Positions 8,365-54,121 of a stretch of 64,000 bases of DNA are shown here, one piece after another. Each line of letters opens with the position of its first letter. The stretch's first letter is position 1. The stretch is from the NCBI RefSeq assembly GCF_000378205.1, contig NZ_KB899424.1:1-64000 (forward strand). The letters are read 5' to 3'. Both the position numbers and the translations under genes were made by a program. Source of the DNA: Sediminispirochaeta bajacaliforniensis DSM 16054 (GTDB lineage Bacteria; Spirochaetota; Spirochaetia; DSM-16054; Sediminispirochaetaceae). The notes below the pieces were generated by a model. The model was not told where the DNA came from and searched no databases. It saw nothing but the letters and a program-made list of their open reading frames with translations.

Positions 8365-9075
8365 ATGAAAACAAGTAGATCATTTCGAGCGGTACTTTTC
8401 GATATGGATGGAGTGCTTGTCGATTCCGAGCGGTACATTGCGGAAGCGGCAATAGAAATGTTTCGCCAAGGCTACGATACAGAGGTGGATCCCAAGACCT
8501 TTCTGCCCTTTGTCGGGACAGGAGAGGGCAATTTCATTACAGGAGTAGGGAAACTATATAATATCAGCCTCACCATGCCCCGAGATAAAGAAAAAACATA
8601 TGAAATCTATGAAGAGCTCATACAGGGGCATCTACATGAGATCAACGGGGCCCGGGCCTTCGTTCAGGCCTGCAAAAAGGCCGGCCTTGCCGTTGCCATT
8701 GCTACAAGTGCCGATAAACGCAAAATGATGGCCAATCTTCGGGAGCTTGGTTTCCATCAGGAGGATTTCGATGCCACGGTGCATGGTGCGGAAGTGAAAA
8801 ACAACAAACCGGATCCCGAAATTTACCTGAGAGCGGCACAAAAGGTGGGGATCGATCCAGGTGATTGCCTGGTTGTGGAAGATGCTGTCAGGGGAATAGA
8901 AGCAGGAAAGGCCGCAGGAGCACGCTGTCTCGGCCTTACCTCAAGTTTTGATGCCAAAGCCTTGTTGGCCGCCGGTGCCGATTATGTGGCGGCTGACCTT
9001 GCGGAAGCCCTAAAAACCCCTCCACCGAACCTTTTCCAATCCGAAGGAGGGGCTCCTACAGTAACCCGTACGTAG
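8365..9075 (+). CDS. HAD-superfamily hydrolase, beta-phosphoglucomutase-like
   Basis: A 236-residue cytoplasmic phosphatase or phosphomutase. The start at 8365 is preferred over 8341 because GGAGG lies six bases upstream. Motif I is FDMDGVLVDS with Asp13 and Asp15, motif II is ATSADKR, the motif III lysine is in NKPDPEIY, and motif IV is VVEDAVRGIEAG. The alpha-helical cap after motif I fits the beta-PGM/phosphoglycolate phosphatase subgroup. The substrate is probably a small sugar phosphate. The last residues, PPPNLFQSEGGAPTVTRT, look unlike a family C-terminus, and the stop codon lies inside a transposon-end-like repeat, so the tail may have been altered by an insertion. Confidence 0.85.
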   Translation: MKTSRSFRAVLFDMDGVLVDSERYIAEAAIEMFRQGYDTEVDPKTFLPFVGTGEGNFITGVGKLYNISLTMPRDKEKTYEIYEELIQGHLHEINGARAFVQACKKAGLAVAIATSADKRKMMANLRELGFHQEDFDATVHGAEVKNNKPDPEIYLRAAQKVGIDPGDCLVVEDAVRGIEAGKAAGARCLGLTSSFDAKALLAAGADYVAADLAEALKTPPPNLFQSEGGAPTVTRT

Positions 9076-9145
9076 TGTCCGGAATCGTGGTGATCTTATG
9101 CCGTTTTACCAGAAAAATCCTTACATTTCCAGGATTCGGAACACT
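9074..9145. repeat. 72-base element with imperfect terminal inverted repeats
   Basis: AGTGTCCGGAATC at 9074-9086 is mirrored by GATTCGGAACACT at 9133-9145, an almost perfect 13-base inverted repeat. The ends look like insertion-sequence termini, and the inside is too short to code. It overlaps the stop codon of the HAD gene. It may be a MITE-like remnant or a long hairpin that ends the HAD transcript; there is no clear T-run. Confidence 0.4.
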
Positions 9146-9162
9146 AAGTAACCCATAATTTC

Positions 9163-10563
9163 CTAACGAAGGTAGCGATCGACAACGTCGGAGACTCTGC
9201 GCCCCATATCGATCGCTTTTACCACAAGACTCGCCCCCTGCACCGCATCACCAGCGGCAAAAATGCCTTCCGTATTGGTAGCCAGACCATCATCAACGGC
9301 TATATTTCCCCGTTTATCAAGGCCTATGGCAAAATCCTTGATAAGACGAGAATGTTCGACATGGACAAAACCTGCTGCAATGAGCACCATGTCGAGCTCC
9401 AGGGTGAACTCGGTACCCGGCACTTCTTTCAACTGATCATCCAGATCACAGAAGATTCCCTTCTCGACATTCACTCCTGCCATTCCATACAGTTGCTTTG
9501 TCTTGATACTCCATCGCCTGTCGCTTCCCTCTTCATGGCTTGAAGAGGTGCGAAGGATTCTGGGATAGTCGGGCCACTGGGGGTTCCATGATTCGTGCCA
9601 TTCCCTTGGTTTGGGCATAATTTCAAACTGGTATACCTTCTCCGCTCCCTGACGGTTGGCGGTTCCAACACAGTCTGCTCCGGTATCACCGCCTCCTATG
9701 ACAAGCACCTTTTTACCCCTTGCGGAAATCAGTTCCCTGTCGCTTATTTCTCCGTGAAGATGCTTCGTCACGCTGGTAAGATAGTCGAGGGCAAAGTAGA
9801 TACCTTCGTTATCGATGCCGGGGACCGGAAGCCTTCGAGGCTCCCTTGAGCCAAGGGCAAGAACCACCGCATCGTGTTTTCGTTTTAGATACCGGGCCGA
9901 AATATCGACTCCCACCGTCACTCCGGTCTCGAACTCAATACCCTCTTTTTGAAGGATCTCGAGCCTGCGATCGATGATACGTTTCTCAAGCTTAAATTCG
10001 GGAATGCCATAGCGCAAAAGCCCGCCGGGTTTCGAGGCCTGTTCATAAACAGTGACCTTGTGCCCCATCCTTCGCAGCTGCTGGGCGGCAGCTAAACCGG
10101 AAGGACCGGATCCGACCACCGCCACTTTTTTACCGCTTTCATGTCGTGGCGGTTGCGGGAGAACCCAGCCGTTTTCAAAGGCCATCTCGATAATCGCAAG
10201 CTCGATGGCGCGGATGGTAACCGGGGCATCATTAATAGAAAGCGTACAGGAACTTTCACAGGTTGCAGGACAAATCCTGCCCGTAAGCTCAGGGAAATTA
10301 TTGGTAAGCTCGAGGCGGTCATAGGCCTCGCGCCATAGCCCACGATAGACCATATCGTTAAACTCAGGGATGATATTTCCGAGGGGACAGCCCAGAGCAT
10401 GGCAAAAGGGGGTACCGCAGTCCATACAGCGGGCAGCTTGCTGACTCAACCTTCCATATTCGAGATTTTTCATCACCTCGTGGTAATCTTGAACTCGCTC
10501 GTTCATATCCCGATAACCGCCTAATTGGCGTTGATATTTTAGAAATCCAAGTAATTCTCCCAT
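9163..10563 (-). CDS. gltD: Glutamate synthase (NADPH) small subunit
   Basis: The 466-residue beta subunit passes electrons from NADPH through FAD to the large subunit. The N-terminus holds Fe-S cysteines in CMDCGTPFCHALGCPLG and in CPATCESSC. FAD binding is seen as VVGSGPSGLAAAQQL and NADPH binding as VIGGGDTGADC; the C-terminal FAD part is GIFAAGDAVQGASLV. I chose the ATG of MGELLGFLKY because it begins one base after the gltB stop and has GGGAGG upstream. A longer frame would run back into gltB. Together with gltB it completes glutamine-dependent glutamate synthesis. Confidence 0.96.
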   Translation of the reverse strand: MGELLGFLKYQRQLGGYRDMNERVQDYHEVMKNLEYGRLSQQAARCMDCGTPFCHALGCPLGNIIPEFNDMVYRGLWREAYDRLELTNNFPELTGRICPATCESSCTLSINDAPVTIRAIELAIIEMAFENGWVLPQPPRHESGKKVAVVGSGPSGLAAAQQLRRMGHKVTVYEQASKPGGLLRYGIPEFKLEKRIIDRRLEILQKEGIEFETGVTVGVDISARYLKRKHDAVVLALGSREPRRLPVPGIDNEGIYFALDYLTSVTKHLHGEISDRELISARGKKVLVIGGGDTGADCVGTANRQGAEKVYQFEIMPKPREWHESWNPQWPDYPRILRTSSSHEEGSDRRWSIKTKQLYGMAGVNVEKGIFCDLDDQLKEVPGTEFTLELDMVLIAAGFVHVEHSRLIKDFAIGLDKRGNIAVDDGLATNTEGIFAAGDAVQGASLVVKAIDMGRRVSDVVDRYLR

Positions 10564-10564
10564 G

Positions 10565-13500
10565 TCAGCCTCCCACCTCTTCGGTGATAAAGGCACTCTC
10601 GGACTGGACCACCCTGTTTCGGTTGATCCGTTCGAGGGCCTTTTTGTAATCAATCGGGATAACCTTTACAAACAACGGCACAATTTCATCCCAGATTTCA
10701 AGAATTCTTGCACCGTTCCTGCTTCCCGTGTAACGGACGTGGCGTTCGATATAGTGCCTCATAAAGGCCTCGTCCTTTTCGTCGGTAATCTGCTCGACAT
10801 CTACCATTTCCAGGTTACAGCGAGTGTCGAACAGTTGACTCTCATCAAGGACATAGGCGATACCGCCGCTCATCCCAGCTGCAAAATTGATGCCGGTTTC
10901 ACCAAGAACGATAACAGCACCCCCGGTCATATATTCGCAGCCATGATCTCCGACCCCCTCGACAACGGCGACTGCACCGCTATTACGGACGGCAAAACGT
11001 TCACCAGCCCTCCCGTTTATGTAGGCCTCCCCGCCTGTCGCCCCGAAAAGGTTAACATTGCCGGTAATAATATTCCGCTGTGCGAGAAATTGTGATCCCT
11101 TCGGAGGAAACACCGCAAGCTTTCCACCGGAAAGCCCCTTACCGAAATAGTCGTTGGCCTCACCCTCCAGGGAAAGGCTTATTCCACGGGCCAGAAAGGC
11201 TCCGAAGCTTTGCCCGGCCGACCCCTGCAGATGTACTTTTATGGTATCTTCAGGAAGCCCTTCAAGCCCATATCGACTTGAGACTTCACTGCTGAGCATC
11301 GCCCCGATTGTTCGGTTACTGTTTCTCACCTTATAGCTCAGTTCAACCGGCTCTTTTTTCTCGATTGCCGGCTTGGCCTCCTGGATCATGTGCCAGTCAA
11401 AGGATTTGGTAAAGTCGGTCTTTATGTAGCCAAGACATCGCCGAGGTGCGTCAGAATTCGGATCCGATCCCTCGAGAATCTTTGAAAGATCAAGCCCCGT
11501 CATTTTGTAGTGATCTACCGCATGGGTCACATCCAGGAGATCACTTCGTCCGACCATCTCTTCAAAGCGTCTAAAGCCTAAACTCGCCATGATCTCTCTC
11601 ACCTCTCTGGCAACAAAGAGCATAAAGTTCATTAAATGTTCCGGCTTTCCCTGAAAACGACAGCGCAACCGCTCGTCCTGGGTTGCAATCCCCACAGGGC
11701 AGCTGTTGAGATGGCATTTACGCATCAAGATACAACCGAGACTCACCAGGGTAACCGTACCGAAACCGAACTCTTCGGCCCCCAGCATAGCGGCAACGAC
11801 GATATCGCGTCCGGTCCGCAACTGACCGTCCACCTGGACCCGGATATTTTCCCTGAGCTTATTCTGCACAAGGACCTGTTGTGTCTCGGCAAGGCCCAAC
11901 TCCCAGTATGAGCCAGCATGGTAGAGTGAAGAGAGAGGAGAAGCACCGGTTCCCCCCTCTCCGCTGCTGATAAGCACCATATCGGCCTTTCCCTTTGCAA
12001 CCCCTGCCGCGATGGTTCCCACGCCGACCTCCGAAACCAGCTTGACCGAAACCCTTGCCTTTGGATTTGCATGCTTCAGGTCATAGATAAGCTGCGCAAG
12101 ATCCTCGATCGAATAGATATCGTGATGGGGCGGAGGAGAGATCAACATCACTCCCGGCGTCGAATGGCGAACCCTGGCGATAATATCATCAACCTTGTGA
12201 CCGGGAAGTTGGCCGCCTTCACCTGGTTTTGCGCCCTGAGCCATCTTGATCTGGAGCTCTTTCGCGTTAACCAGGTATTCCCCGGTTACACCGAAACGAC
12301 CCGAGGCGATCTGCTTAACCGTGCTTACGGCGCTGTCTCCACCGGGAAGAGGTTTGTAGCGATGGTTATCCTCGCCTCCTTCCCCCGAATTGCTCATGGC
12401 CCCGAGACGGTTCATGGCAATGGCAATGGTGGTATGGGCCTCTTCACTCAAGGAACCGAACGACATGGCAGCGGAGGCAAAACGCTTTACGATCTCCTCC
12501 GCCGATTCCACCTCTTCCAGGGGGATAGCCTCCCGTTCTTTAAAGGTGAATAAGCCCCGCAGGCTACAGAGGTTTTTTTCGATATTATTAATCTCGCTGG
12601 AATACTCCTTGAAGGTTTCATAATTAGCTTCCCTCACCGCCTTTTGCAGCTTGACAATGGCAAGGGGAGTAAAACGATGACGGGTGGAATTCTTTCTGTA
12701 GTTGTACAGTCCTCCGGAATCGAGATGATCGAGCTGCTTTTCATCAAACCGATAGCCCGATAGGTGGCGCTGGACCGTCTCCCTCTCGATCTCGGCAAGG
12801 CCGATTCCCTCTATGTTCGAAGGGGTATGGGGAAAATATTCCTTCATGAGATCGCTGTTGAGCCCCAAAGCCTCATAGATCTGGGAACCGCGGTAGCTTC
12901 TGAGGGTTGAAATTCCCATCTTCGACATGACCTTAAGCAGCCCCTTTTTAACTGCTGTGATGTAGTTCTCAGCAGCCTGTTCGACAGTGATTTCCTCCGG
13001 GATATAGCCCCTGCGCTTCAGGTCCATCAGGGCCTCGAAGACCATGTAGGGATTCACTCCGCTTGCGCCGTAACCGACGAGGGTCGCCACATGATGGACC
13101 TCTCTCGCCTCTCCTGTTTCTATGATGATACCGGAGAGATGTCGTTTACCCTGTCTGACGAGGTATTGCTGTACCGCTCCCATGGCCAAGAGTGCGGGAA
13201 TCGGCACCATCTCCTGACTCATCCCACGGTCGCTGAGGATGATGAGGGATGCTCCTTCGTCGATTTTCTCTTCAACCTGTCGGCAAAGCTGGTCCAGGGC
13301 AGGTTTTAGAGCCCCACCGGCCTCACAACAGGGGAAAAGCATCGGTACACTTTCTACATGGAAATCGCCGATCTGGCTATTGCGCAGGCGATGTAAATCG
13401 TCGTTGGTAAGTACGGGATGGGCCAACTTTAACTGGCGGCAATGCTCGGGGGACTCGGCAAGAAGATTGCGTTCCCGTCCGACAAAGCTCATGAGACTCA

Positions 13501-33932: not shown

Positions 33933-34286
33933 ATATTGAACCTCTATGCGTCGAATAAACTAATAGCGATAAATCGACAGTGCTGCCGAAGCGCTACAGG
34001 ACTTGAAAAGAGAATGCGAATTTGAGTTTATTCGGAGGCGGCGGAGAGGTAGAAAAAGATATAGGGCAAAAAGAAAGAGGCTTGGCAAGTTTCAGGGAGA
34101 TACTATTGAATAGAACTGTTTTGGCCATTATATACTCCCAAAATCCCAAGCAAAAACCAACAATAGAATGTACCTTTTCGTTTGTGCGTTGTCAATCCAG
34201 GTTCTTTCCGGTACCTTTGGAAAAGATGTATGCTAAGTTTCCATAAAAAGATAGGAAAAATTACCTATATGATATATACTATGAAT

Positions 34287-34384
34287 TCATAAGCCATGGA
34301 AGCGTAGCTTATCTATCCTCTGGAATAAACGCTCCATAGTTGCTCCTATCAAGCCGGCAGAACGTTGTTTTGCCGGCTTTTTTG
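34287..34384 (+). ncRNA. Candidate small RNA with two hairpins
   Basis: From about seven bases after TATACT (34275-34280) the plus strand can fold a nine-pair stem with one bulged A (34296-34305 with 34329-34337). It then runs into a perfect terminator hairpin with six T. The next gene downstream is on the opposite strand, so this terminator has no coding gene to serve. No -35 box is seen and no known RNA family was recognised. Confidence 0.35.
34351..34384 (+). terminator. Intrinsic terminator
   Basis: The nine-base perfect stem AAGCCGGCA/TGCCGGCTT (34351-34359 and 34371-34379) has an 11-base loop and is followed by a T-run to 34383. The T-run is on the plus strand only, so it does not serve the MFS gene ending at 34414 on the minus strand. 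Confidence 0.85.
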
Positions 34385-34413
34385 CTTAAACGCACAGGCT
34401 TTGATAGAGAATC

Positions 34414-35625
34414 CTATTCTTCTTTTTTTATTCGTAAGAAGATACAACTGGAAAGTCCAAATACGATACCTGACAAAATCCATATCCCCGAAATTTTTAT
34501 TATTCCTACTAACAAACTATACGCCAGAGAACCGATAATCCCACCAAACTGCATCATCAGAGACGAAAGCGACAACAGTGATGATCGTTTTTCATCTGGA
34601 ATTACCGAATTCAAAACCGTTCCCTCTGGTATACTTAACATTCCATTTACCATGAAAAGCAATAAATATATTGAGGCAAAAGAAAATAACCTTGCTTGAA
34701 ATGATAGAACAATTATCAAGACACCTGTTATTATCCTGCCCAGGAACAGCAATACATTGGGCTTATCACTTTTTTTCCTTAAAATCAAATTTATTATGCC
34801 GACACCTACCAACGAAGCCAAAAAATATCCGCTATTTATTACTCCGAAGATCCATGTCTTTGTTTCACCTTTTAAAATCCAGCTCATTTTAGGCTGCCAG
34901 TATAATTCTATGGCATTAAAACAGAAGCCCCAAATCATAGTTCCGAATATCAATAAGATAATTTTTCTGCTATTCGCTACTGTGCGCAAAGATTCTTTTA
35001 CATACTTACTCAATCGTTTGTTCGTCTTTGTTGTATCGGCCGGTTCTTTTACCACTAGTAGCGTACATATAAATATGAGGAAAAGTATCAGAATCTGTGC
35101 CGTAAGATTACCATTATATCTATTTTGACCTGGAAAATACTTTTCCCAGACCATAGGTATTACGCCACCTGTCAAAGCCCCCATAGATAGTCCTAAAATT
35201 TCCCCCGCATTTAATATGCTAAGAAACTTATGAAGGCTCTCTTTTCCATGATCTTTGATGTATTTGTTTATGAACAAAGCCTCAATTGACCCCGATGAAA
35301 AGGCCCTTGAAACTCCATACATCGCAAACCCAACAAAAAGAGTAACAATACTATTCGAAAAAAAGACAATGGTATAACCGACAATAGCTATGATAAGCGA
35401 AAACTGATAAACCGTTTTTTGCCCTACTATGTCAGAAATAATACCACTTGGAAACTCAAATATAACGATGAATATAGAATAGAGAGCGGTAATCAATCCT
35501 AATGTATCGACACCACTGCCTTTCGACAACATCATCAGCGACATGACAGAAGTACCAATACCCACTGAAAACCAATGAAAAAATCGATTTAAAAAAGGTA
35601 TGATAGACGCTTTCTCGATTGACAT
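34414..35625 (-). CDS. MFS transporter, AT-rich, probably acquired
   Basis: A 403-residue permease with about 12 membrane segments. The loop pattern PSGIISDIVGQKTVYQ is an MFS-type DxxG signature. Its base composition is clearly more AT-rich than the flanking genes, with many Ile, Lys and Asn codons ending in A or T. Transfer from another host is therefore likely. It starts four bases after the stop of a truncated frame that abuts tRNA-Met. It is related in overall plan to the MFS gene at 30471-31748 but is not a close copy. Macrolide-efflux-like transporters look similar; the cargo is unknown. Confidence 0.85.
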   Translation of the reverse strand: MSIEKASIIPFLNRFFHWFSVGIGTSVMSLMMLSKGSGVDTLGLITALYSIFIVIFEFPSGIISDIVGQKTVYQFSLIIAIVGYTIVFFSNSIVTLFVGFAMYGVSRAFSSGSIEALFINKYIKDHGKESLHKFLSILNAGEILGLSMGALTGGVIPMVWEKYFPGQNRYNGNLTAQILILFLIFICTLLVVKEPADTTKTNKRLSKYVKESLRTVANSRKIILLIFGTMIWGFCFNAIELYWQPKMSWILKGETKTWIFGVINSGYFLASLVGVGIINLILRKKSDKPNVLLFLGRIITGVLIIVLSFQARLFSFASIYLLLFMVNGMLSIPEGTVLNSVIPDEKRSSLLSLSSLMMQFGGIIGSLAYSLLVGIIKISGIWILSGIVFGLSSCIFLRIKKEE

Positions 35626-35629
35626 GCTC

Positions 35630-35749
35630 TTATATATTTACTTTTTTACCAACCAATGTCCACCATGCATATGAATCAACCCCAACACTTGCATGGCAAT
35701 CTAACCATTCTAAATATTCATGCTCACTAAAATTATCAATACGTACATT
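35630..35749 (-). pseudogene. Truncated 39-codon C-terminal fragment beside tRNA-Met
   Basis: Directly after the tRNA 3' end on the minus strand an open frame of 39 codons has no start codon and ends four bases before the MFS ATG. Its sequence looks like genuine protein: charged and aromatic residues such as SEHEYLEWLDCHA and VDSYAWWTLVGKKV. It seems to be the tail of a gene whose front was lost when this DNA joined the tRNA. The family was not recognised. Confidence 0.45.
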
Positions 35750-35750
35750 T

Positions 35751-35823
35751 TAGTGGCGAAGGGATTTGAACCCCTGACCGAACGGATATGAGCCGTTTGC
35801 TCTACCAACTGAGCTACGCCACC
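35751..35823 (-). tRNA. tRNA-Met (anticodon CAT), elongator type
   Basis: A 73-base cloverleaf. The acceptor GGTGGCG pairs with CGCCACT, with a G-U at the first pair. The D-arm is GCTC/GAGC, the anticodon stem AACGG/CCGTT has loop CTCATAT with anticodon CAT, and the T-arm AGGGG/CCCTT has TTCAAAT. The discriminator is A and the CCA end is not encoded. The paired first position argues against initiator tRNA. A tRNA-Ile reading AUA after modification is the other possibility for CAT. Confidence 0.92.
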
Positions 35824-35839
35824 ATGTTGAACGACGCAC

Positions 35840-35868
35840 ACTATACCAATCACCCTTTTTTATGTCAA
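35840..35868 (-). promoter_or_regulatory. Promoter of tRNA-Met
   Basis: On the minus strand TTGACA (35868-35863) and TATAGT (35845-35840) are 17 bases apart, nearly consensus. It lies 17 bases upstream of the mature tRNA. Confidence 0.75.
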
Positions 35869-35904
35869 TATCTTTATGATTTTTTACCGGAAGGAGTACT
35901 TCAT

Positions 35905-36303
35905 ATGACACACTCATACACATTGACCGTCCGGAGTTACGAATGCGATATGCATCGCCATGTAAACAACGCGGTCTACCTCAATTATCTGGAAGCGGCT
36001 CGAATGGGTTTCTTGAACGACGTCGACTTTGATTATGAAGCATTTCTCGACGCGGGATACGCTCTTTTTGTCGTCAATATTAATGCCCCTGCATTCCTCA
36101 ACGATATACTGACGGTGCAGACAAGCCCTATAAAACGAAAACGCTTATCCGGCACATTCCTCCAGGAAGTGAAGAGGAAAGAGGCCTTACTGGCGAGGGC
36201 GGAAGTGACCTGGGCTTGCGTCAATCACTCAGGCAAACCCGTCCCGTTGCCGGAAGAATTTTCCGGACCTTGGATTGATCCCGAACCTGTGACGGTGGCG
36301 TAA
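35905..36303 (+). CDS. Acyl-CoA thioesterase, 4HBT hotdog fold
   Basis: A 132-residue hotdog-fold enzyme that hydrolyses acyl-CoA thioesters. The YECDMHRHVNNAVYLNYLE segment is the family signature, in which the acidic residue near HVNN is catalytic. The second strand set LLARAEVTWACVNHSGKPV is typical. The ATG at 35905 has GGAAGGAG eight bases upstream. A longer frame starting at 35788 would read through the tRNA and is rejected. It is a single gene; the 972-residue regulator ends four bases away on the other strand. Confidence 0.9.
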   Translation: MTHSYTLTVRSYECDMHRHVNNAVYLNYLEAARMGFLNDVDFDYEAFLDAGYALFVVNINAPAFLNDILTVQTSPIKRKRLSGTFLQEVKRKEALLARAEVTWACVNHSGKPVPLPEEFSGPWIDPEPVTVA

Positions 36304-46134: not shown

Positions 46135-46878
46135 ATGATGCAGGTATTTAATGTGATGGAAGAGCTCGTTCTTGAAATGGTGCATGAAATTTTCGAGGAA
46201 AAGCGAGGTAAAGGCTTCCCACTTGTCGACTGTGAACAATGCAGACTCGATGTAGCATGCTATGTTCTCAATCGGATAGAACCTGAATACCTCATCTCAG
46301 GCCGGGGCGTCGTCCACGTTCAGAACGAATTACGGCAAAATTTTCAAAAACGGGCGGATATTGTATCCCTTGTCAACGAAGGGATACGGATCATCACTCA
46401 GAATCAGCGCCCTTATTATGAGGCACATGAAGATGAATCGGCTAAAGAGGAAGGAATCTCCAGGGGCCCTTATTTTAATTTTCCGGCGATCATCGGTACG
46501 ATCCTCAATGGAAAAACCTTCGAACCTGCGGAAAACCTCAATGTCTTTCTTTTCCAGGACGGTAAGCCTGTTTCCATGATCGACAGGAGCTGGCCCAATC
46601 CATATTTCATCGTCCGGAGCACAAGAGGTAGCTTCAGTTTCTGGCCCAGGCCGATCAAGGCGTCCCGAGAAAACGAAAAGAAAAACGTCAATCTCGAAAT
46701 CAGGGCCGAAGCGGAAGGATTTCAGCCGATCAGACACTTTATCGATATTCAACTCACTGCCGTCCAAGCCTACTGTACTACCTTCTCCATGGAAAGGAGC
46801 CTGAAGGTAGGCAACCTCTATTTTTTCACAAAGGCCAGCGAGGAGGAACAACGGGAACTTGGGGTCGAAGACCTATAA
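46135..46878 (+). CDS. ComFB-domain protein with C-terminal beta domain
   Basis: A 247-residue protein. Residues about 1-95 match ComFB: FNVMEELVLEMVHEIFEE, DCEQCRLDVACYVLNRIEP and YLISGRG. ComFB proteins are reported receptors of cyclic dinucleotides in some bacteria. Residues 110-240 form a beta-rich domain (PAIIGTILNGKTFEPAENL, SFSFWPRPI, IRAEAEGFQPIRHFIDI) like a transthyretin or CarboxypepD_reg fold. Ordinary ComFB proteins end near residue 100, so this looks like a fusion. AAAGGAG precedes the ATG. No competence gene is nearby. Confidence 0.78.
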   Translation: MMQVFNVMEELVLEMVHEIFEEKRGKGFPLVDCEQCRLDVACYVLNRIEPEYLISGRGVVHVQNELRQNFQKRADIVSLVNEGIRIITQNQRPYYEAHEDESAKEEGISRGPYFNFPAIIGTILNGKTFEPAENLNVFLFQDGKPVSMIDRSWPNPYFIVRSTRGSFSFWPRPIKASRENEKKNVNLEIRAEAEGFQPIRHFIDIQLTAVQAYCTTFSMERSLKVGNLYFFTKASEEEQRELGVEDL

Positions 46879-46892
46879 GAGGTTACGGCAGA

Positions 46893-47183
46893 TTAATCGA
46901 AGTGCTCACTATGCACGCCGTAATGCTGAATACGGCCGGGAATTTCATCTTCAAGAAAAAGCATTACCTTATTCATAACACGCTCTCCATGTTCCCGGCT
47001 GTTTGTCACAAAGGCCCCTCCGATCTGTCCGAAGCGAAGGCTGTCGTGTAGATCGACCTCAGCAGCGGATATGCGGAATTTATTCCCTAATCGCGCGACC
47101 ACCGACTTGATAACCCGCCGCTTCTCTTTGAGGCTGGTTGTCTCAGGCAGTTCGAAAAGGCACTGCATCATTGTCACAATCAT
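46893..47183 (-). CDS. DUF503 family protein (YlxP-like)
   Basis: A 96-residue protein of the DUF503 family. The signature is LPETTSLKEKRRVIKSVV with ISAAEVDLHDSLRFGQIGGAFV. The family often lies beside rbfA and infB in other bacteria, but here it stands between a ComFB fusion and a membrane protein. Its role is not established. Confidence 0.9.
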   Translation of the reverse strand: MIVTMMQCLFELPETTSLKEKRRVIKSVVARLGNKFRISAAEVDLHDSLRFGQIGGAFVTNSREHGERVMNKVMLFLEDEIPGRIQHYGVHSEHFD

Positions 47184-47193
47184 TATTGTTCCC

Positions 47194-48324
47194 TCACTTC
47201 AGTCCATTCAAATCCCCGAGAGATTCCAGTGTGAGGGCACTGTGTTCCCGGCTTTCGGGAGTGCGCTCTCGAATCTTCATCGGCAGATAGGTTTCATTGT
47301 AAAGACGGGATAGTATGAAAAGGTCATCCCCGCTGTAGCGGGATGGAATACGAACCTCCAGATTGTAATCCGGCTCTTCATAGCCTCGACGCATGACATG
47401 AACGGGATCAGTCACCGTTACGGCGAAATGAGGGCCGTAAAGAAAGAGTAATGCGATGAGAAGCAACACTACTATGGAGAAAACCAGCAATTGCTGGGCA
47501 GCAGAGGCGGCTCTTGCATCCCGAATGTCAAAAAAGAAGGCATGAGAGCCCTTTTCTGCAACCCGGTAATCTTCCACATCGAAATGGCGTCGATAGTAAT
47601 CATTGTTAAAACGGGTATAGAGGGTTAGATCCTTATCGGTATCACGGACCAGCAGCAAATCGCTCTTCATATGAAAAAGATCTTCGAAATATCGTTCCGC
47701 TTTCACGTTTTCATCCACAGCGTCAAGAAAGCGGTTCTGTTCAGCCTCTGCCACCCCGGTCGGTGTGGGAATATGCAAAACCGAAACAAAAAAACCATAG
47801 ACGAGAGCAGCAAAAACAACGGTCGAAACGGCCAGAGTCGACAGCCGTGTCAGATGACGCTGTGCCATGGAGCTGTCGACATATTTTATGTTTCGAAAGA
47901 GTTTCAAGACCCGAAGGAAACGCAACACCCTTGCAAGGCGAATGGCTTTCACCGCTTTCAGCATGTTAAGCGCACCGCCACCGGCAAGAAAGAGCGATCC
48001 GCCGAGGCTTAGCACATACACCCGCGGTCCGCTGTCGAAAAGCAAAAGAGGAAGGGCAGCAAGAAAGTCCACCCACCCTCGCCGGCGGAAGAAATAGTCG
48101 CCCCCCTCTTTTCGACCAAGCGCAGTGAACCACCTTACCAGGAATTCGATGGTAAAAAGCAGATCAAAGGCAAAGCCTGCGCAGGCAAGATAACCCCTCA
48201 CCTGGGCAGGCCAGTAGGCTATAAGGGCAATCTCTTCAAAAAAGGTTTGAATAAGTACAAGAAAAATCGCCACGGTCAGAAAGGTATCTAATGCTCCTCG
48301 TTTCTCTTCTTTCATTGTTACCAT
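47194..48324 (-). CDS. Voltage-sensor-like membrane protein with periplasmic domain and HAMP
   Basis: A 376-residue protein. Residues 12-145 have four hydrophobic segments in ion-channel voltage-sensor style: S2 has FDLLFTIEFLVRWF, S3 has WVDFLAALPLLLF, and S4 has KAIRLARVLRFLRVLKLFR with a positive residue every third position. A pore with a potassium filter is absent. A fifth segment (161-184), an exported region of about 90 residues, a sixth segment (278-297) and a HAMP-like linker (VTDPVHVMRRG, SGDDLFILSRLYN) follow. The chain then ends without an output domain. It overlaps the previous gene by seven bases. A partner probably receives the signal. Confidence 0.75.
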   Translation of the reverse strand: MVTMKEEKRGALDTFLTVAIFLVLIQTFFEEIALIAYWPAQVRGYLACAGFAFDLLFTIEFLVRWFTALGRKEGGDYFFRRRGWVDFLAALPLLLFDSGPRVYVLSLGGSLFLAGGGALNMLKAVKAIRLARVLRFLRVLKLFRNIKYVDSSMAQRHLTRLSTLAVSTVVFAALVYGFFVSVLHIPTPTGVAEAEQNRFLDAVDENVKAERYFEDLFHMKSDLLLVRDTDKDLTLYTRFNNDYYRRHFDVEDYRVAEKGSHAFFFDIRDARAASAAQQLLVFSIVVLLLIALLFLYGPHFAVTVTDPVHVMRRGYEEPDYNLEVRIPSRYSGDDLFILSRLYNETYLPMKIRERTPESREHSALTLESLGDLNGLK

Positions 48325-49235
48325 CCGTTTTCAGCGGCGAGCCGGTATAGCTCATCCGTCATCTTCACATCATATCCAAAAAGCCGGTGGTTCCGTCGGG
48401 CAATGCCGAACCAACTACGTTCCTGCCCCACCGCCCCACGATCGACCTTGAGCCCGGGATGAAAATCGCATGCCAGCATACTGAAAAGGGCGGAAAGCCG
48501 GGCGGTAGCCGGAATATCATTTCTTTCGTCGAAAGAGACATTGCTGTAAACCGCACTCTCAAGAAGCTCAGCAGGTAAAAAAGGAAGCTCTTTTTCCAAG
48601 GCCTGTATCACCTTTTGAGCAAATTGAAAGGGAATAAGCCCGGCCACCTCATGTTGTCCCGGAAGCCTTGCAACCTGGAAAAGGAATACGGCAGGCCGTA
48701 AAAGGATAGAGGTTCGAATGAGATTCTTCACCTCTTCCTGGCTCATCGCAAGCTTTTGAACCTTTTCAAGCTCAAAGCGGATATAACCCCTTCCGTCGTA
48801 TATAAGGTCGAGATAGCGATGCGCGAGATGAAGCTGTATGGCACTGTAGGGGCCGGTAAGAGCCTTTCGGGCCAAAGGATGAGCAATCAGCCTCATCATA
48901 AAAGAGAAAAGACGAGTTTCCCGATCATCGGAACGCCCCGTGGGCCGGGGAAAAAAGGAGAGAAAATGGAAATTGATGGTTCGGGAAAAAAACTCCTTCA
49001 ACCCCGAAACCACCGATTCGGAGGTAGAGGCATAAAGTGCCTGCATAAGTAGTTTATAGATCTGATTCCAGGACTGTCCAGGAAAAAAGTCGGGAGAAGA
49101 AAGGGTCGGATAGAGCCGCCCGGCATTGATCCGCAGAAAGGAAATAATCTGCTCTTCCTTTTGGAGCGGAGCATAGGCTTTCAAAGAGGGATTGGCCAGC
49201 AGATGCCGCACAAACTGACTCGCTTTCTGATCCAT
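48318..49235 (-). CDS. Protein of unknown function, helical, cytoplasmic
   Basis: A 305-residue protein without signal peptide or membrane segment. It is rich in helices with Phe and Leu (NFHFLSFFPRPTG, AELLESAVYSNVSFDE). No catalytic motif was recognised. The stop overlaps the start of the voltage-sensor-like gene by seven bases, so the two are translated together and may act together. No Shine-Dalgarno is present; a TACAAT box ends seven bases before the ATG. It is divergent from the giant surface-protein gene. Confidence 0.65.
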   Translation of the reverse strand: MDQKASQFVRHLLANPSLKAYAPLQKEEQIISFLRINAGRLYPTLSSPDFFPGQSWNQIYKLLMQALYASTSESVVSGLKEFFSRTINFHFLSFFPRPTGRSDDRETRLFSFMMRLIAHPLARKALTGPYSAIQLHLAHRYLDLIYDGRGYIRFELEKVQKLAMSQEEVKNLIRTSILLRPAVFLFQVARLPGQHEVAGLIPFQFAQKVIQALEKELPFLPAELLESAVYSNVSFDERNDIPATARLSALFSMLACDFHPGLKVDRGAVGQERSWFGIARRNHRLFGYDVKMTDELYRLAAENGW

Positions 49236-49282: not shown

Positions 49283-52200
49283 ATGTCGCATCAGCGAAGA
49301 ACCCTTCACATCTGCATGCTGTTTTTTTGCGTTGTTCTCCGCGTCTCGGCGGCAGACGAGGTTCCGCTTCCTTCGGAAGAGGTTCCCGCCACCCTCTTTG
49401 CATCGATTCCTGAAGAAGATATCGACCTCTATGTCTCAGGAACCTGGCAGGCCGAAGTTTCGGCGGGATTCGCCCTCACATGGAGTACCCTCTCCCCGGT
49501 CATGCAAACAACAACGATCTCCGATATCGACAGTGGATTTCGTTTCGACCAGTATCCGGATATCATTATTTCTCTATGGATACGAGACCGCTGGTTTTTC
49601 GATCTCTCCTTCAAAGAGGGCAACGACGTCAATTCTATTGTAGCGGGCTATCAGGGGAAAGAGGGAGAGCTTGTGCAGGAGGTACGGGTCGGTAATATCG
49701 ATATCGGTTCCTTCGAATCAAGCTTTTTCACCCTTCCGGAAGCGGGGATAGATTCCCTCGGTCTCTGGGCTCGGCTGACCCCTGAGCACTCCGAACACAG
49801 CTTCGCCCTTCGCTACGACCCCGCCGCATACCAGCGTGTTACCTTCAGAGGGATGAACGAGGTAAAACAGGAGCAGTTCGACCTGGACGATTATTCGACA
49901 AACAGGGTCTTCGTTCTTCCCGACGACGATGTTGAGGATGTGGTGCTCTATATCCAGGATGAAGACGGAGCGTTTCAGGAAGCCGGCACCGATGATGCGG
50001 TGGTGGATACCGAAAACGGGATTGTCTACCTGAAAGAGGCCCCCACCGGCAGGGTGGCGGTCTACTACAAAAAAGGGGGAAAGGAAGTCGGAGATAGCGG
50101 CCTTGGCACCGATGCCCTCTGCGGTATCAATGCCGACGGCCTTTTTGATCCCAAGGCAACGCCGGTCGACTTTTCTTTTAGCGGAACCTATACAGGATTG
50201 GGAATAACTCTTTCCGAATTTCGATACGACGAACAGATTGACGGTCATGATGTCCTACTCCTCTACCGCCCCGGCCTCTGGTCCCCCTTTCTCCACCGCG
50301 GCATCTACGAACTTTCCACGACCCCACAGGAGAATGAACTCTATGCGGCCCTCATGAGCGGCAGCGACGAGTACGATGGTATGACCCTTGAGGCCGAGCA
50401 GCTTAGCTATGGAGAAGAGGACTTCGGTAAGCTGATACGTATCGTGGATGAGGATCGGGAGCTTTCGGATATGCGATCATTGTATCGTCGTTATCCTCTG
50501 GCACGGGCTATCATCGAGGCAGGCTACAATAGCGATATCTACGGCCCGAAGCGGGGAATAAGCGGAGATGCAGCCCCCTGGTTGCTTCAAATTGAACACC
50601 TTTCGGAGGTTTCTGCCTTTCAACTCGAAGAGGGGGTTCTTGGGGATTCGGTATCGGTGACAAAAAACGGTAAAGAGCAGTCCCGCTTTACCGTAGACTA
50701 CGACACAGGAGTGCTTACTCCGCTTTTTACCGTAAACGATGACGATCTGATCGTTGTTACCTACCGTACAAGAAGCGGAGGGGATCTTGGAGACCTGATC
50801 TTCGCCACCCAAAACAGCTTTACCCTTACCGACAGGCTGAGCCTGGGCCTGGATGCGGGGTTTCGCTGGAACATTGCCGGTCAATCTTACACCACCGAAT
50901 CCGATCAGGCCCCGGGATTCATTGCCGCCGGTACGAGCCTCTTTTACGATAACAAGGACGAGGAAGATTACGCCCTGAGCTTCAGCGTGGAAGCGGGGCT
51001 CTCGTTGAATAATCCAGACACCACCGGATTTTTCCGGCTTCTGGGTATGAACGATGCGGGAGTCGATGTTCCCATCAGTAACAAGCGCCTTTTTCCAGCC
51101 GCCGCCGACGATGCAAATAGCAGCCCCAGTTTTCCTGAAAACGATCGCGGGAAACTCTTTTACTACGACTTCTACAGCTACCCCACGGTGGGAAGCGCCG
51201 TCCTTAAACGATATGACTGGAGCGTTCCCTCGGACCAGAGATACCCCTACGACGAAGATGAGGGGGAAGACCGGGTTGGACCTTCCATAGCGGCGACGGG
51301 CAGCGAGACCGACGGCAACGCCCTGGTCTTTACCTACGAGCTTGACGCCGGAGAGTGGGTCGGCGGCCGCATACCTTTGAGCACCGGCGGGAACGCCCTG
51401 GATCTCTCTTCTGCGACCAGAATCGATCTATTGGTCCGTCCCCGCCAGGATATCAGCGACCTAAACATCTATCTCCGAGTCGGAGACCTCATCGAAGATC
51501 TTGACGGGGACGGCCTGCTCGATGAGGAATCGGGTTCCCTCTCTTCCGGTTTCTCCTTCGATCCCGACGGTATCGACCGTCCTGTCGGAGGCGACAACGG
51601 CAAGACCGACAGCGAGGATCTCAACGGCGACGGTGAGCTAAGCTGGACAAGCGGAGAGGATGACGATCTGGTGTGGAAATCACAGGCCCTTGATGTCGAT
51701 GGAACCAGCAACAGCTGGCAGCGGATCAGCATCGACCTCTCGGCGGCAGAGCGGGCCAAGCTTCAATCGGTTACCGCTATGGACATCATGATCGTCAATG
51801 AAGGATCAGTGGATGATACGACAGGCACCATCCTGGTTGCCGACCCCATCTTTGTCGGCACCAGCTTCTCCGTGAACCCGGATGATTCCACAAGCCAGAC
51901 GGTGACGGCAAGCGAGGCCCTTGAAACACGGGCCGGGGCAAGTTCGGCATCTACAAGCCTTGCCGAGGCCTTCCCCGATGAGACCGATATTTTCACAGAC
52001 GGAGAGACCCAGCGCTGCGCCCTTTTTACCTGGGATGCCGGCACTGCCGGCGGCACATGGAGCGCATCCACCCTCACCCCCACTGCCGATCTTGGAAACT
52101 ACCAGGCACTGCAATTTTTTCTCAGAACCCCCGATCCTGCCCCTGATAACATAACGGTCTCTCTAAGCTCCACCGAAGGGAAAGGCGTTACCGCAACCTT

Positions 52201-54121
52201 TGTTCCAATCGAAAGCGATGCATGGCAGCTTATCACCATCAATCTCGACAAAAAAAGGATAAAAAGCAGCGAAGGAACCATATCAGATCAAGAGGTTTCC
52301 GTTAACAATCGGGACGCCGCCGTATCCTATTTCAAGATGGAGGTCGAGACTTCTTCCGAAGACACTTCCGGAGAGCTTTGGCTCGATGAGCTGCATCTGA
52401 CAGATGCCCTCATGTCCCTGGAATCCACGGTTAAGAGCTCCGTTGCCTACCACAAGCAGGGGACCTATTTTTCTTTAAAAGGGAAACCGGTATTATCCGA
52501 GTTTGATTTCGCCTCCGAATCAACCTGGAACGGTGATTACGGGACCGCCGCAGGTAGTGATTCCACCCACTCCTTTTATTCATCATCTGCACTCAGCAGC
52601 GCTCTTTTTAACGGAAATGTCTATGGTGATTTCGCCTTCTCGGCCGAAGCCTACGAGTTTCTTCCCTCCTTTACCGCAGGCTACGCCATGCCCGTTGCAT
52701 CGGGAAGGATCAAGGCAGCCGAAGAGTATGCCGAAGACCACGCCGCAGAGGGGATCACCTTCAGCCATTCGGCCGAAATTACCTTTGCTCCCTGGATTGC
52801 CAACCCGGAACGCATACTTTCTCTGGAGAGCAGTTTTTCAAAACCAAAGACAAAGGTCAAACAACAGTGGGCCATAGGCATGGGAGCCGGCAGAAATGAG
52901 ACTCATAATGCCTTTTCCCTTTCACTCTCAAACGCACTTACAGGGAGCGACGAAGAGGAACATGAAACCTTTTCAGAGCGGATGTCGGAAAGTACCGAAG
53001 GCCTGTTGCTTCCCCAAATGGACCAGGTTACACGCCGAAACTCGAAATTGGATCTTATGCAGATGTTCCCCCTTCCCCTTGGTTTTCTCACGGTGGAGGC
53101 AGACGGAAGCACCACCGCGCGCAGTTCCTCATCCAAGCGGCTTGATGCCGACCATCTGTTGAGTACAACCTGGGATCTGCCTATGGAGAAAAAAAGAAAC
53201 CTGCGATTTCGTCTCTACCATGAATTGGAGGCAAAAGTAAGCATAGAGGATATAACATCCACTCCGTCCACACCGCTACATTCGCTGATTCTCGATGCAA
53301 AGGGCTTCTCCACCGGTATCGGTTCCATCTATGCCCTGCTCTCCTCAGACCCCTTATCGGTGTTTGGAACGGGGCCTTTTACGGGAGAGGAAGAAAAGCT
53401 TTTAACCGCATCCTATACCCCGGCAGCCTCATGTTCCTTTAGCCGCAATCCGGGGAGCGCCCTCAGCGACCTCATTGTCCCGGCAACATTCGACATCACC
53501 CGCTCCACCACCTATGAAAAAAGCTATGATGAGATTGGCAGAAGCGGAGTAACATCGATTTCGTGGACAAGCTCTGCGATTAATCTCTTCGGCCGTTTAG
53601 GCAGCTACCCTCTTGCCGATTGGTACAGGACCGATGCATTTGCTTCCTCCGCCAGGTTCGACATTGAGGATAGCGGGGCCCTCGACGCTCTTCATGTCGC
53701 ATCATTTCTTCTTCAGATCAATGAGAAGTATTCGCTTAAGGGCGAAAACGACTTTAGCGCAAGCTTCGACGACGGAGCCACTCTGGATACCCTGAAAAAT
53801 GAAACAACGTTGACGCTGATCAGTAGAAAGGGAGAACCGAGGCGCTTGCCGATTCCCCATTACCTCAGAGGGGACAGCCCGGTACGCCTCATCCATGAGC
53901 TTTCCTTTGGCAACGATCTTCTCTTCGATAATGAAGAGAATGAACAAGATCTTACCCTTTCACTTTCTCATGAAACGACCCTCGATCTCTCCTCCCGGGG
54001 AGAGATCAATGCACATCTTACCGGGCTTTTCATGCGTGAGGCCTATGCATCCGGAAGTGATTCCGTCACATACTATACCATAGGTTTCGAAGCAGGCCTC
54101 GGCTTCACTCTCTCCTTTTAA
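49283..54121 (+). CDS. Giant outer-membrane/surface protein, SprA-like
   Basis: A 1612-residue exported protein with a short signal peptide (MLFFCVVLRVSAADE). Repeated beta modules carry phrases such as VDTENGIVYLKEAPTG and VDYDTGVLTPLFTVNDDD. Two acidic calcium-type loops, DLDGDGLLDEES and DLNGDGELSW, lie near residues 740-780. A galactose-binding-like part ends in GELWLDELHL. From about 1050 the chain is strongly beta with alternating residues and ends GFEAGLGFTLSF, the terminal Phe of outer-membrane barrels. The phrases and size recall SprA, the Bacteroidetes surface/translocon protein; this is by eye. No Shine-Dalgarno is present; TATAAT ends seven bases before the ATG. Confidence 0.72.
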   Translation: MSHQRRTLHICMLFFCVVLRVSAADEVPLPSEEVPATLFASIPEEDIDLYVSGTWQAEVSAGFALTWSTLSPVMQTTTISDIDSGFRFDQYPDIIISLWIRDRWFFDLSFKEGNDVNSIVAGYQGKEGELVQEVRVGNIDIGSFESSFFTLPEAGIDSLGLWARLTPEHSEHSFALRYDPAAYQRVTFRGMNEVKQEQFDLDDYSTNRVFVLPDDDVEDVVLYIQDEDGAFQEAGTDDAVVDTENGIVYLKEAPTGRVAVYYKKGGKEVGDSGLGTDALCGINADGLFDPKATPVDFSFSGTYTGLGITLSEFRYDEQIDGHDVLLLYRPGLWSPFLHRGIYELSTTPQENELYAALMSGSDEYDGMTLEAEQLSYGEEDFGKLIRIVDEDRELSDMRSLYRRYPLARAIIEAGYNSDIYGPKRGISGDAAPWLLQIEHLSEVSAFQLEEGVLGDSVSVTKNGKEQSRFTVDYDTGVLTPLFTVNDDDLIVVTYRTRSGGDLGDLIFATQNSFTLTDRLSLGLDAGFRWNIAGQSYTTESDQAPGFIAAGTSLFYDNKDEEDYALSFSVEAGLSLNNPDTTGFFRLLGMNDAGVDVPISNKRLFPAAADDANSSPSFPENDRGKLFYYDFYSYPTVGSAVLKRYDWSVPSDQRYPYDEDEGEDRVGPSIAATGSETDGNALVFTYELDAGEWVGGRIPLSTGGNALDLSSATRIDLLVRPRQDISDLNIYLRVGDLIEDLDGDGLLDEESGSLSSGFSFDPDGIDRPVGGDNGKTDSEDLNGDGELSWTSGEDDDLVWKSQALDVDGTSNSWQRISIDLSAAERAKLQSVTAMDIMIVNEGSVDDTTGTILVADPIFVGTSFSVNPDDSTSQTVTASEALETRAGASSASTSLAEAFPDETDIFTDGETQRCALFTWDAGTAGGTWSASTLTPTADLGNYQALQFFLRTPDPAPDNITVSLSSTEGKGVTATFVPIESDAWQLITINLDKKRIKSSEGTISDQEVSVNNRDAAVSYFKMEVETSSEDTSGELWLDELHLTDALMSLESTVKSSVAYHKQGTYFSLKGKPVLSEFDFASESTWNGDYGTAAGSDSTHSFYSSSALSSALFNGNVYGDFAFSAEAYEFLPSFTAGYAMPVASGRIKAAEEYAEDHAAEGITFSHSAEITFAPWIANPERILSLESSFSKPKTKVKQQWAIGMGAGRNETHNAFSLSLSNALTGSDEEEHETFSERMSESTEGLLLPQMDQVTRRNSKLDLMQMFPLPLGFLTVEADGSTTARSSSSKRLDADHLLSTTWDLPMEKKRNLRFRLYHELEAKVSIEDITSTPSTPLHSLILDAKGFSTGIGSIYALLSSDPLSVFGTGPFTGEEEKLLTASYTPAASCSFSRNPGSALSDLIVPATFDITRSTTYEKSYDEIGRSGVTSISWTSSAINLFGRLGSYPLADWYRTDAFASSARFDIEDSGALDALHVASFLLQINEKYSLKGENDFSASFDDGATLDTLKNETTLTLISRKGEPRRLPIPHYLRGDSPVRLIHELSFGNDLLFDNEENEQDLTLSLSHETTLDLSSRGEINAHLTGLFMREAYASGSDSVTYYTIGFEAGLGFTLSF

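Follow-up and report, generated by a model that had tools for sequence, protein, structure and literature searches.

The DNA analysed here (the window) is a stretch of 64,000 nucleotides, which carries at 47194–48324, on the minus strand, an ORF of 376 aa whose place and strand, as given in a preliminary description made from the sequence, were confirmed by an ORF check. Comparison of its start with those of homologues favours the second ATG, at 48315, which would yield a protein of 373 aa and with which the overlap with the upstream 305-aa gene would vanish. An AlphaFold2 model of the whole protein, built from 24 sequences and of middling quality (mean pLDDT 74, with residues 107–122 below 50), shows S1–S4, a long TM5, a periplasmic domain and TM6, followed at the C-terminus by helices that a connector joins. 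The order of parts along the chain, namely S1–S4 (the VSD), TM5, a small periplasmic domain, TM6 and a HAMP-like module, is secure. The features are as follows.

47194..48324, minus strand: VSD-TM5-periplasmic-TM6-HAMP protein, 376 aa (probable true start at ATG 48315, 373 aa)
48217..48288, minus strand: S1, residues 13–36, ending in the acidic pair E30/E31 (AlphaFold2 helix; conservation)
48115..48207, minus strand: S2, residues 40–70, with D54 and F57-x2-E60-x3-R64 (conservation)
48004..48078, minus strand: S3, residues 83–107, with D86 (conservation)
47884..47958, minus strand: S4 ladder, K123 to K147, nine basic residues three apart (conservation; shuffles)
47779..47862, minus strand: TM5, residues 155–182 (AlphaFold2 helix, hydropathy)
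47521..47775, minus strand: periplasmic alpha/beta domain, residues 184–268 (AlphaFold2, H-H-E-E-H-E-E)
47440..47502, minus strand: TM6, residues 275–295 (AlphaFold2 helix, hydropathy)
47269..47439, minus strand: HAMP-like module, residues 296–352 (hhalign to HAMPs; conservation)
47203..47247, minus strand: C-terminal tail, approximately LxLxxDDhxxLh, residues 360–374, a candidate docking peptide (alignments, by eye)
48318..49235, minus strand: partner gene, 305 aa, directly upstream (no Pfam match; all-helical prediction)
46893..47183, minus strand: DUF503 protein, the next gene downstream

The DUF503 gene is a conserved neighbour in most of the Spirochaetia loci that we looked at. A gene for a 1612-aa protein with no Pfam match (49283–54121), which diverges from the pair at a distance of 47 bases, is likewise conserved in most loci inspected; a 247-aa ComFB-domain protein (46135–46878) is also conserved near the locus. 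A promoter scan returned sites no more numerous than in shuffles, and a terminator scan gave five sites against 3.2 expected and was not used. Elsewhere in the window, GC content drops to 0.377 at positions 34001–36000, compared with 0.46–0.56 in the remainder.

Voltage-sensor module and the region after S4

The Pfam family Ion_trans matches residues 13–195 with an E-value of 5e-11, covering profile positions 5–157 of 241, and was matched by all 24 of the aligned members. In S2, the spacing F57-x2-E60-x3-R64 equals that of the Kv charge-transfer centre (Kv1.2), and these three residues are conserved at 97, 96 and 95% respectively, with D54 at 100%; D86 in S3 is present in 100% of 94 rows. The charge-transfer centre is thus represented by its Phe and Glu in S2 and its Asp in S3. 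The acidic pair that ends S1 is also retained in the alignment (84% E and 10% D at position 30; 88% D and 11% E at position 31).

The S4 ladder runs K123-K126-R129-R132-R135-R138-K141-R144-K147, with an exact spacing of three. In a conservation alignment of 95 rows, of which 91–94 are filled at the seven positions concerned and which includes the Borrelia-type copies L027 and L028, positions 123, 126, 129, 132, 135, 138 and 141 are basic in 95–100%, and the last two are looser, with R or K in about 72% at position 144 and K or R in about 84% at position 147. The longest such ladder in 20000 shuffles of the protein was five residues (seven cases), compared with nine in the real one, and ladders of five or more were confined to this VSD family when 363 ORFs with a length of 100 aa or more were compared from the neighbourhoods of its loci. 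Conservation, shuffles and the ORF comparison together rule out a chance origin. The resemblance of S1–S4 to a channel voltage sensor with a full S4 charge ladder, as put forward in the preliminary description, is thus borne out. Loss of the S4 charges in homologues, which that description had said would speak against it, was not seen in most members, but the ladder is eroded in L027 and L028, and the charges are also eroded in some HAMP-less or diverged copies.

The same description had held that the pore filter is missing, had named a predicted pore domain as evidence to the contrary, and had proposed structure prediction and comparison with Ion_trans proteins as checks. Neither a pore loop nor a filter was found between TM5 and TM6, the S5/S6 positions: the match to the profile goes no further than position 157 of 241, before the pore, and the AlphaFold2 model has in this place a helix–helix–strand–strand–helix–strand–strand domain, so that no pore domain is predicted. 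In 60 genomes, Ion_trans matches of this VSD family mostly end at profile positions 144–157, with a few reaching further (201 in G080, 202 in G068 and 219 in G070), whereas many others run to 233–240 and some are limited to the second half of the profile; an extent to about 236 of 241 is common in other Ion_trans proteins of spirochaetes. Two homologues, L199 and L196, have alignments that reach TM6 (profile positions 219 and 202 respectively), which suggests that TM5 and TM6 may descend from channel S5 and S6, the old pore loop having been replaced. TM6 itself reaches a hydropathy maximum of 3.0 in the near-identical L029 copy.

The periplasmic domain had no Pfam match and is more variable than the gating residues, which are some of the best conserved in the chain. 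It is gone from three members (L194, L201 and L202), all of which keep the HAMP-like module and the partner, and in L201 and L202 S4 has diverged too. By hydropathy, TM5 and TM6 of L194 are approximately 14 residues apart, which leaves no room for a canonical pore loop. A pore-bearing channel as the main reading is ruled out for want of a pore loop, on the evidence of the Ion_trans range, the model and the L194 loop.

A Foldseek search of the PDB with the whole chain gave WalK as the top match (probability 0.94, E 0.08, aligned range not given), and below it the voltage sensors of Kv1.2/2.1, Kv2.1, KCNQ and Ci-VSP, mixed with unrelated entries; all of the E-values in this search were weak, none being better than 0.001.

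HAMP-like module, C-terminal tail and the upstream gene

After TM6 the model shows a helix–connector–helix module in which Y296, F300, G314, Y320, N343, L347 and K350 are conserved at 96–100%, far more than is usual for HAMP. Single-sequence searches with Pfam HAMP (PF00672) gave no match in any of 24 members. In a profile comparison by hhalign with a HAMP profile made from 30 HAMPs of the same genome, however, residues 296–354 aligned with a probability of 84.6 and a score of 26.3 (probability 94.9 with TM6 included), whereas no score above 12.3 came from 30 column shuffles, and probabilities stayed below 1% for six segments taken from elsewhere in the protein. The preliminary description had read this part of the protein as an exported region and a HAMP-like coil after which the chain stops. 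The periplasmic domain and the HAMP resemblance agree with this, but in most partner-bearing members the chain continues beyond HAMP into a short hydrophobic/acidic tail, identified by eye, which is missing from the partnerless L175-type group. A regular expression for the tail matched 58 of 91 partner-bearing tails and was too strict, so that the tail is described from reading by eye.

The product of the upstream gene was predicted to be all helical at a pLDDT of 90. Searches of Pfam, NCBIfam and PDB sequences with this 305-aa protein gave nothing convincing, and nor did Foldseek against the PDB (best E 1.2, probability 0.05). Among HAMP-bearing loci with enough upstream sequence, the gene lies directly upstream, in the same orientation and no farther away than the set distance, in 90 of 106, and it is also present, with a larger overlap, in L087. 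None of the five HAMP-less members (L050, L187, L188, L189 and L192) has it. L050 and L187–L189 appear from their flanking genes to share one locus (L187–L189 by eye), and about three changes are required to account for the HAMP-less group on the VSD tree, which has long branches and is poorly resolved. An independent-pairs test for joint loss of HAMP and partner was underpowered (p = 1) and, given this and the long branches, the link between the two is an association and not proof.

For 15 of the HAMP-bearing members, of which seven are of the L175 type, four of the Leptospirales type and four of neither, no adjoining partner could be detected; one of these, L193, has partner copies elsewhere in its genome. 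The idea that HAMP talks to the product of the overlapping 305-aa gene, also raised in the preliminary description, is supported by adjacency and by the lack of the partner in the HAMP-less members, and the 15 partnerless members count against it. Several partnerless loci have other neighbours. In L175 (6386–9272) a polysaccharide deacetylase gene adjoins, and upstream there is a fragment, caspase-like and containing masked bases; L179 (6457–9654), also of the L175 type, has a caspase-domain gene on one side and a polysaccharide deacetylase gene on the other; the Leptospirales-type L181 (6114–9595) lies between a DUF218 protein and an Ion_trans plus cNMP-binding protein, the Ion_trans match of which covers positions 2–236; and a neighbour of the partnerless member in L190 (2838–4370) has a weak, sub-threshold GGDEF match.

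Distribution among spirochaetes

Matches to the VSD family were found in 28 of 60 relatives and, by profile, in 137 of 393 Spirochaetota genomes, about one-third, a count that includes weak partial matches, probably to ordinary channels. The partner was found in 95 of the 393 genomes, 93 of which also match the VSD family (the exceptions being G113 and G252, with the lists compared by eye). An alignment-based scan of genome contigs confirmed 100 relatives, of which 80 were kept, all from spirochaetes as judged by their titles, and a scan of the contigs with a single sequence found none; as the contig scan used two short patterns, it does not show the family to be absent outside the spirochaetes. 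The occurrence of this family in the Spirochaetota and its link to the 305-aa partner gene are new here.

In the Borrelia-type copy of L049 the S2 Glu is gone and S4 is partly lost, and the pair is kept. Retention of the partner and the HAMP region in such copies, despite the eroded ladder and S2 Glu, indicates that the pair is maintained for other reasons besides voltage. At this locus (8815–11230) the partner is 288 aa long and a 170-aa gene lies between the pair and genes that we take, from their lengths, sequences and order, to be flaA, cheA2, cheW3, cheX and cheY3.

Proposed function and comparison with known proteins

In our assessment the protein is most likely a voltage-modulated receptor that signals through the HAMP-like module to the 305-aa partner, and we give this reading a probability of about one half. 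The protein would be a dimer held by HAMP, in which a change in membrane potential would move S4 and this movement, via the S4–TM5 linker, would shift TM5 and TM6, with the periplasmic domain acting as a second input. In the cytosol, the 305-aa product of the gene directly upstream would receive this state from the HAMP-like module and the C-terminal tail and would in turn act on some target. What argues for such a receptor is the 95–100% conservation of the S4, S2 and S3 residues with an Ion_trans match that ends before the pore, the HAMP resemblance with its controls and the Foldseek matches to WalK, Kv, KCNQ and Ci-VSP (weak E-values), the presence of the partner in about 90 of 106 HAMP-bearing and none of five HAMP-less loci and of the VSD family in 93 of 95 partner genomes, and the retention of HAMP and partner in members without a periplasmic domain. 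Against it stand the failure of single-sequence Pfam HAMP searches, the middling model, the roughly three events behind the association (p = 1), the 15 partnerless HAMP-bearing members and the Borrelia-type copies with an eroded ladder.

The TM5–periplasmic–TM6–HAMP arrangement is that of a receptor, with WalK as the top Foldseek match, and one might accordingly suppose a Cache/PDC-HAMP-type receptor for a periplasmic ligand, in which the VSD serves only as a membrane scaffold or assembly module and voltage is irrelevant; the loss of much of the ladder in Borrelia-type copies would agree with this. Against it, conservation in the protein is at its highest in positions that include the gating residues, while the periplasmic domain varies more, and HAMP and partner are kept in the three members that lack that domain (S4 having diverged in two of them); we regard this reading as unlikely, although worth serious consideration. 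Ion conduction, either of protons through the VSD, as described for Hv1 (PMC5065317), or through an unusual TM5/TM6 pore, is in our view improbable. A pore would draw on the possible descent of these helices from S5/S6 (Ion_trans to 219 in L199 and 202 in L196), but the model has no pore helix or filter between them and L194 is a natural variant with a loop of approximately 14 residues. More doubtful still is a module that is no HAMP and has no signalling role, in a protein that anchors or positions the 305-aa protein at the membrane: the want of a single-sequence HAMP match and a conservation far beyond that usual for HAMP would suit such an anchor, whereas the controlled profile comparison and the helix–connector–helix of the model argue for HAMP.

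Pore-less VSD proteins are known from eukaryotes, namely VSP, Hv1, TMEM266 and sNHE. The voltage-sensing phosphatase Ci-VSP likewise joins a pore-less VSD to a non-channel output in one chain, but it is eukaryotic, its output is an enzyme placed after S4, and it has no TM5/TM6, periplasmic domain or HAMP. The voltage-gated channels of PF00520 (Kv, BacNav, KCNQ) share the S1–S4 homology, the charge-transfer residues and six TM segments, whereas here a periplasmic domain replaces the pore loop and a HAMP-like module follows TM6. The TM–periplasmic domain–TM–HAMP layout is shared with HAMP receptors, for example the histidine kinase WalK, but in the present protein a VSD precedes it and output domains of the kinase, receiver and methyl-accepting kinds are all lacking. 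Hv1 and TMEM266 also have a VSD without a pore domain, their S4 running on into a dimerizing coil (PMC13095418), but they have four TM segments and Hv1 conducts protons. PMC13095418 treats channels, VSP, Hv1 and TMEM266, and those mentioned in PMC10651576 are channels, Ci-VSP and sNHE. In agreement with the preliminary description, which knew of no described protein with the order VSD–periplasmic–HAMP, we found no description of a VSD-HAMP protein in a search of open-access papers.

We tentatively suggest that the family may represent a phylum-wide bacterial receptor dedicated to membrane potential and a second, periplasmic input, with its output relayed by a HAMP-like module to a protein of the cytosol that has no recognized fold relative. 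If the voltage sensing is real, the protein would be a candidate receptor for bacterial electrophysiology with its likely partner gene already in hand, and the existence of a dedicated bacterial sensor of membrane potential would become a directly testable question.
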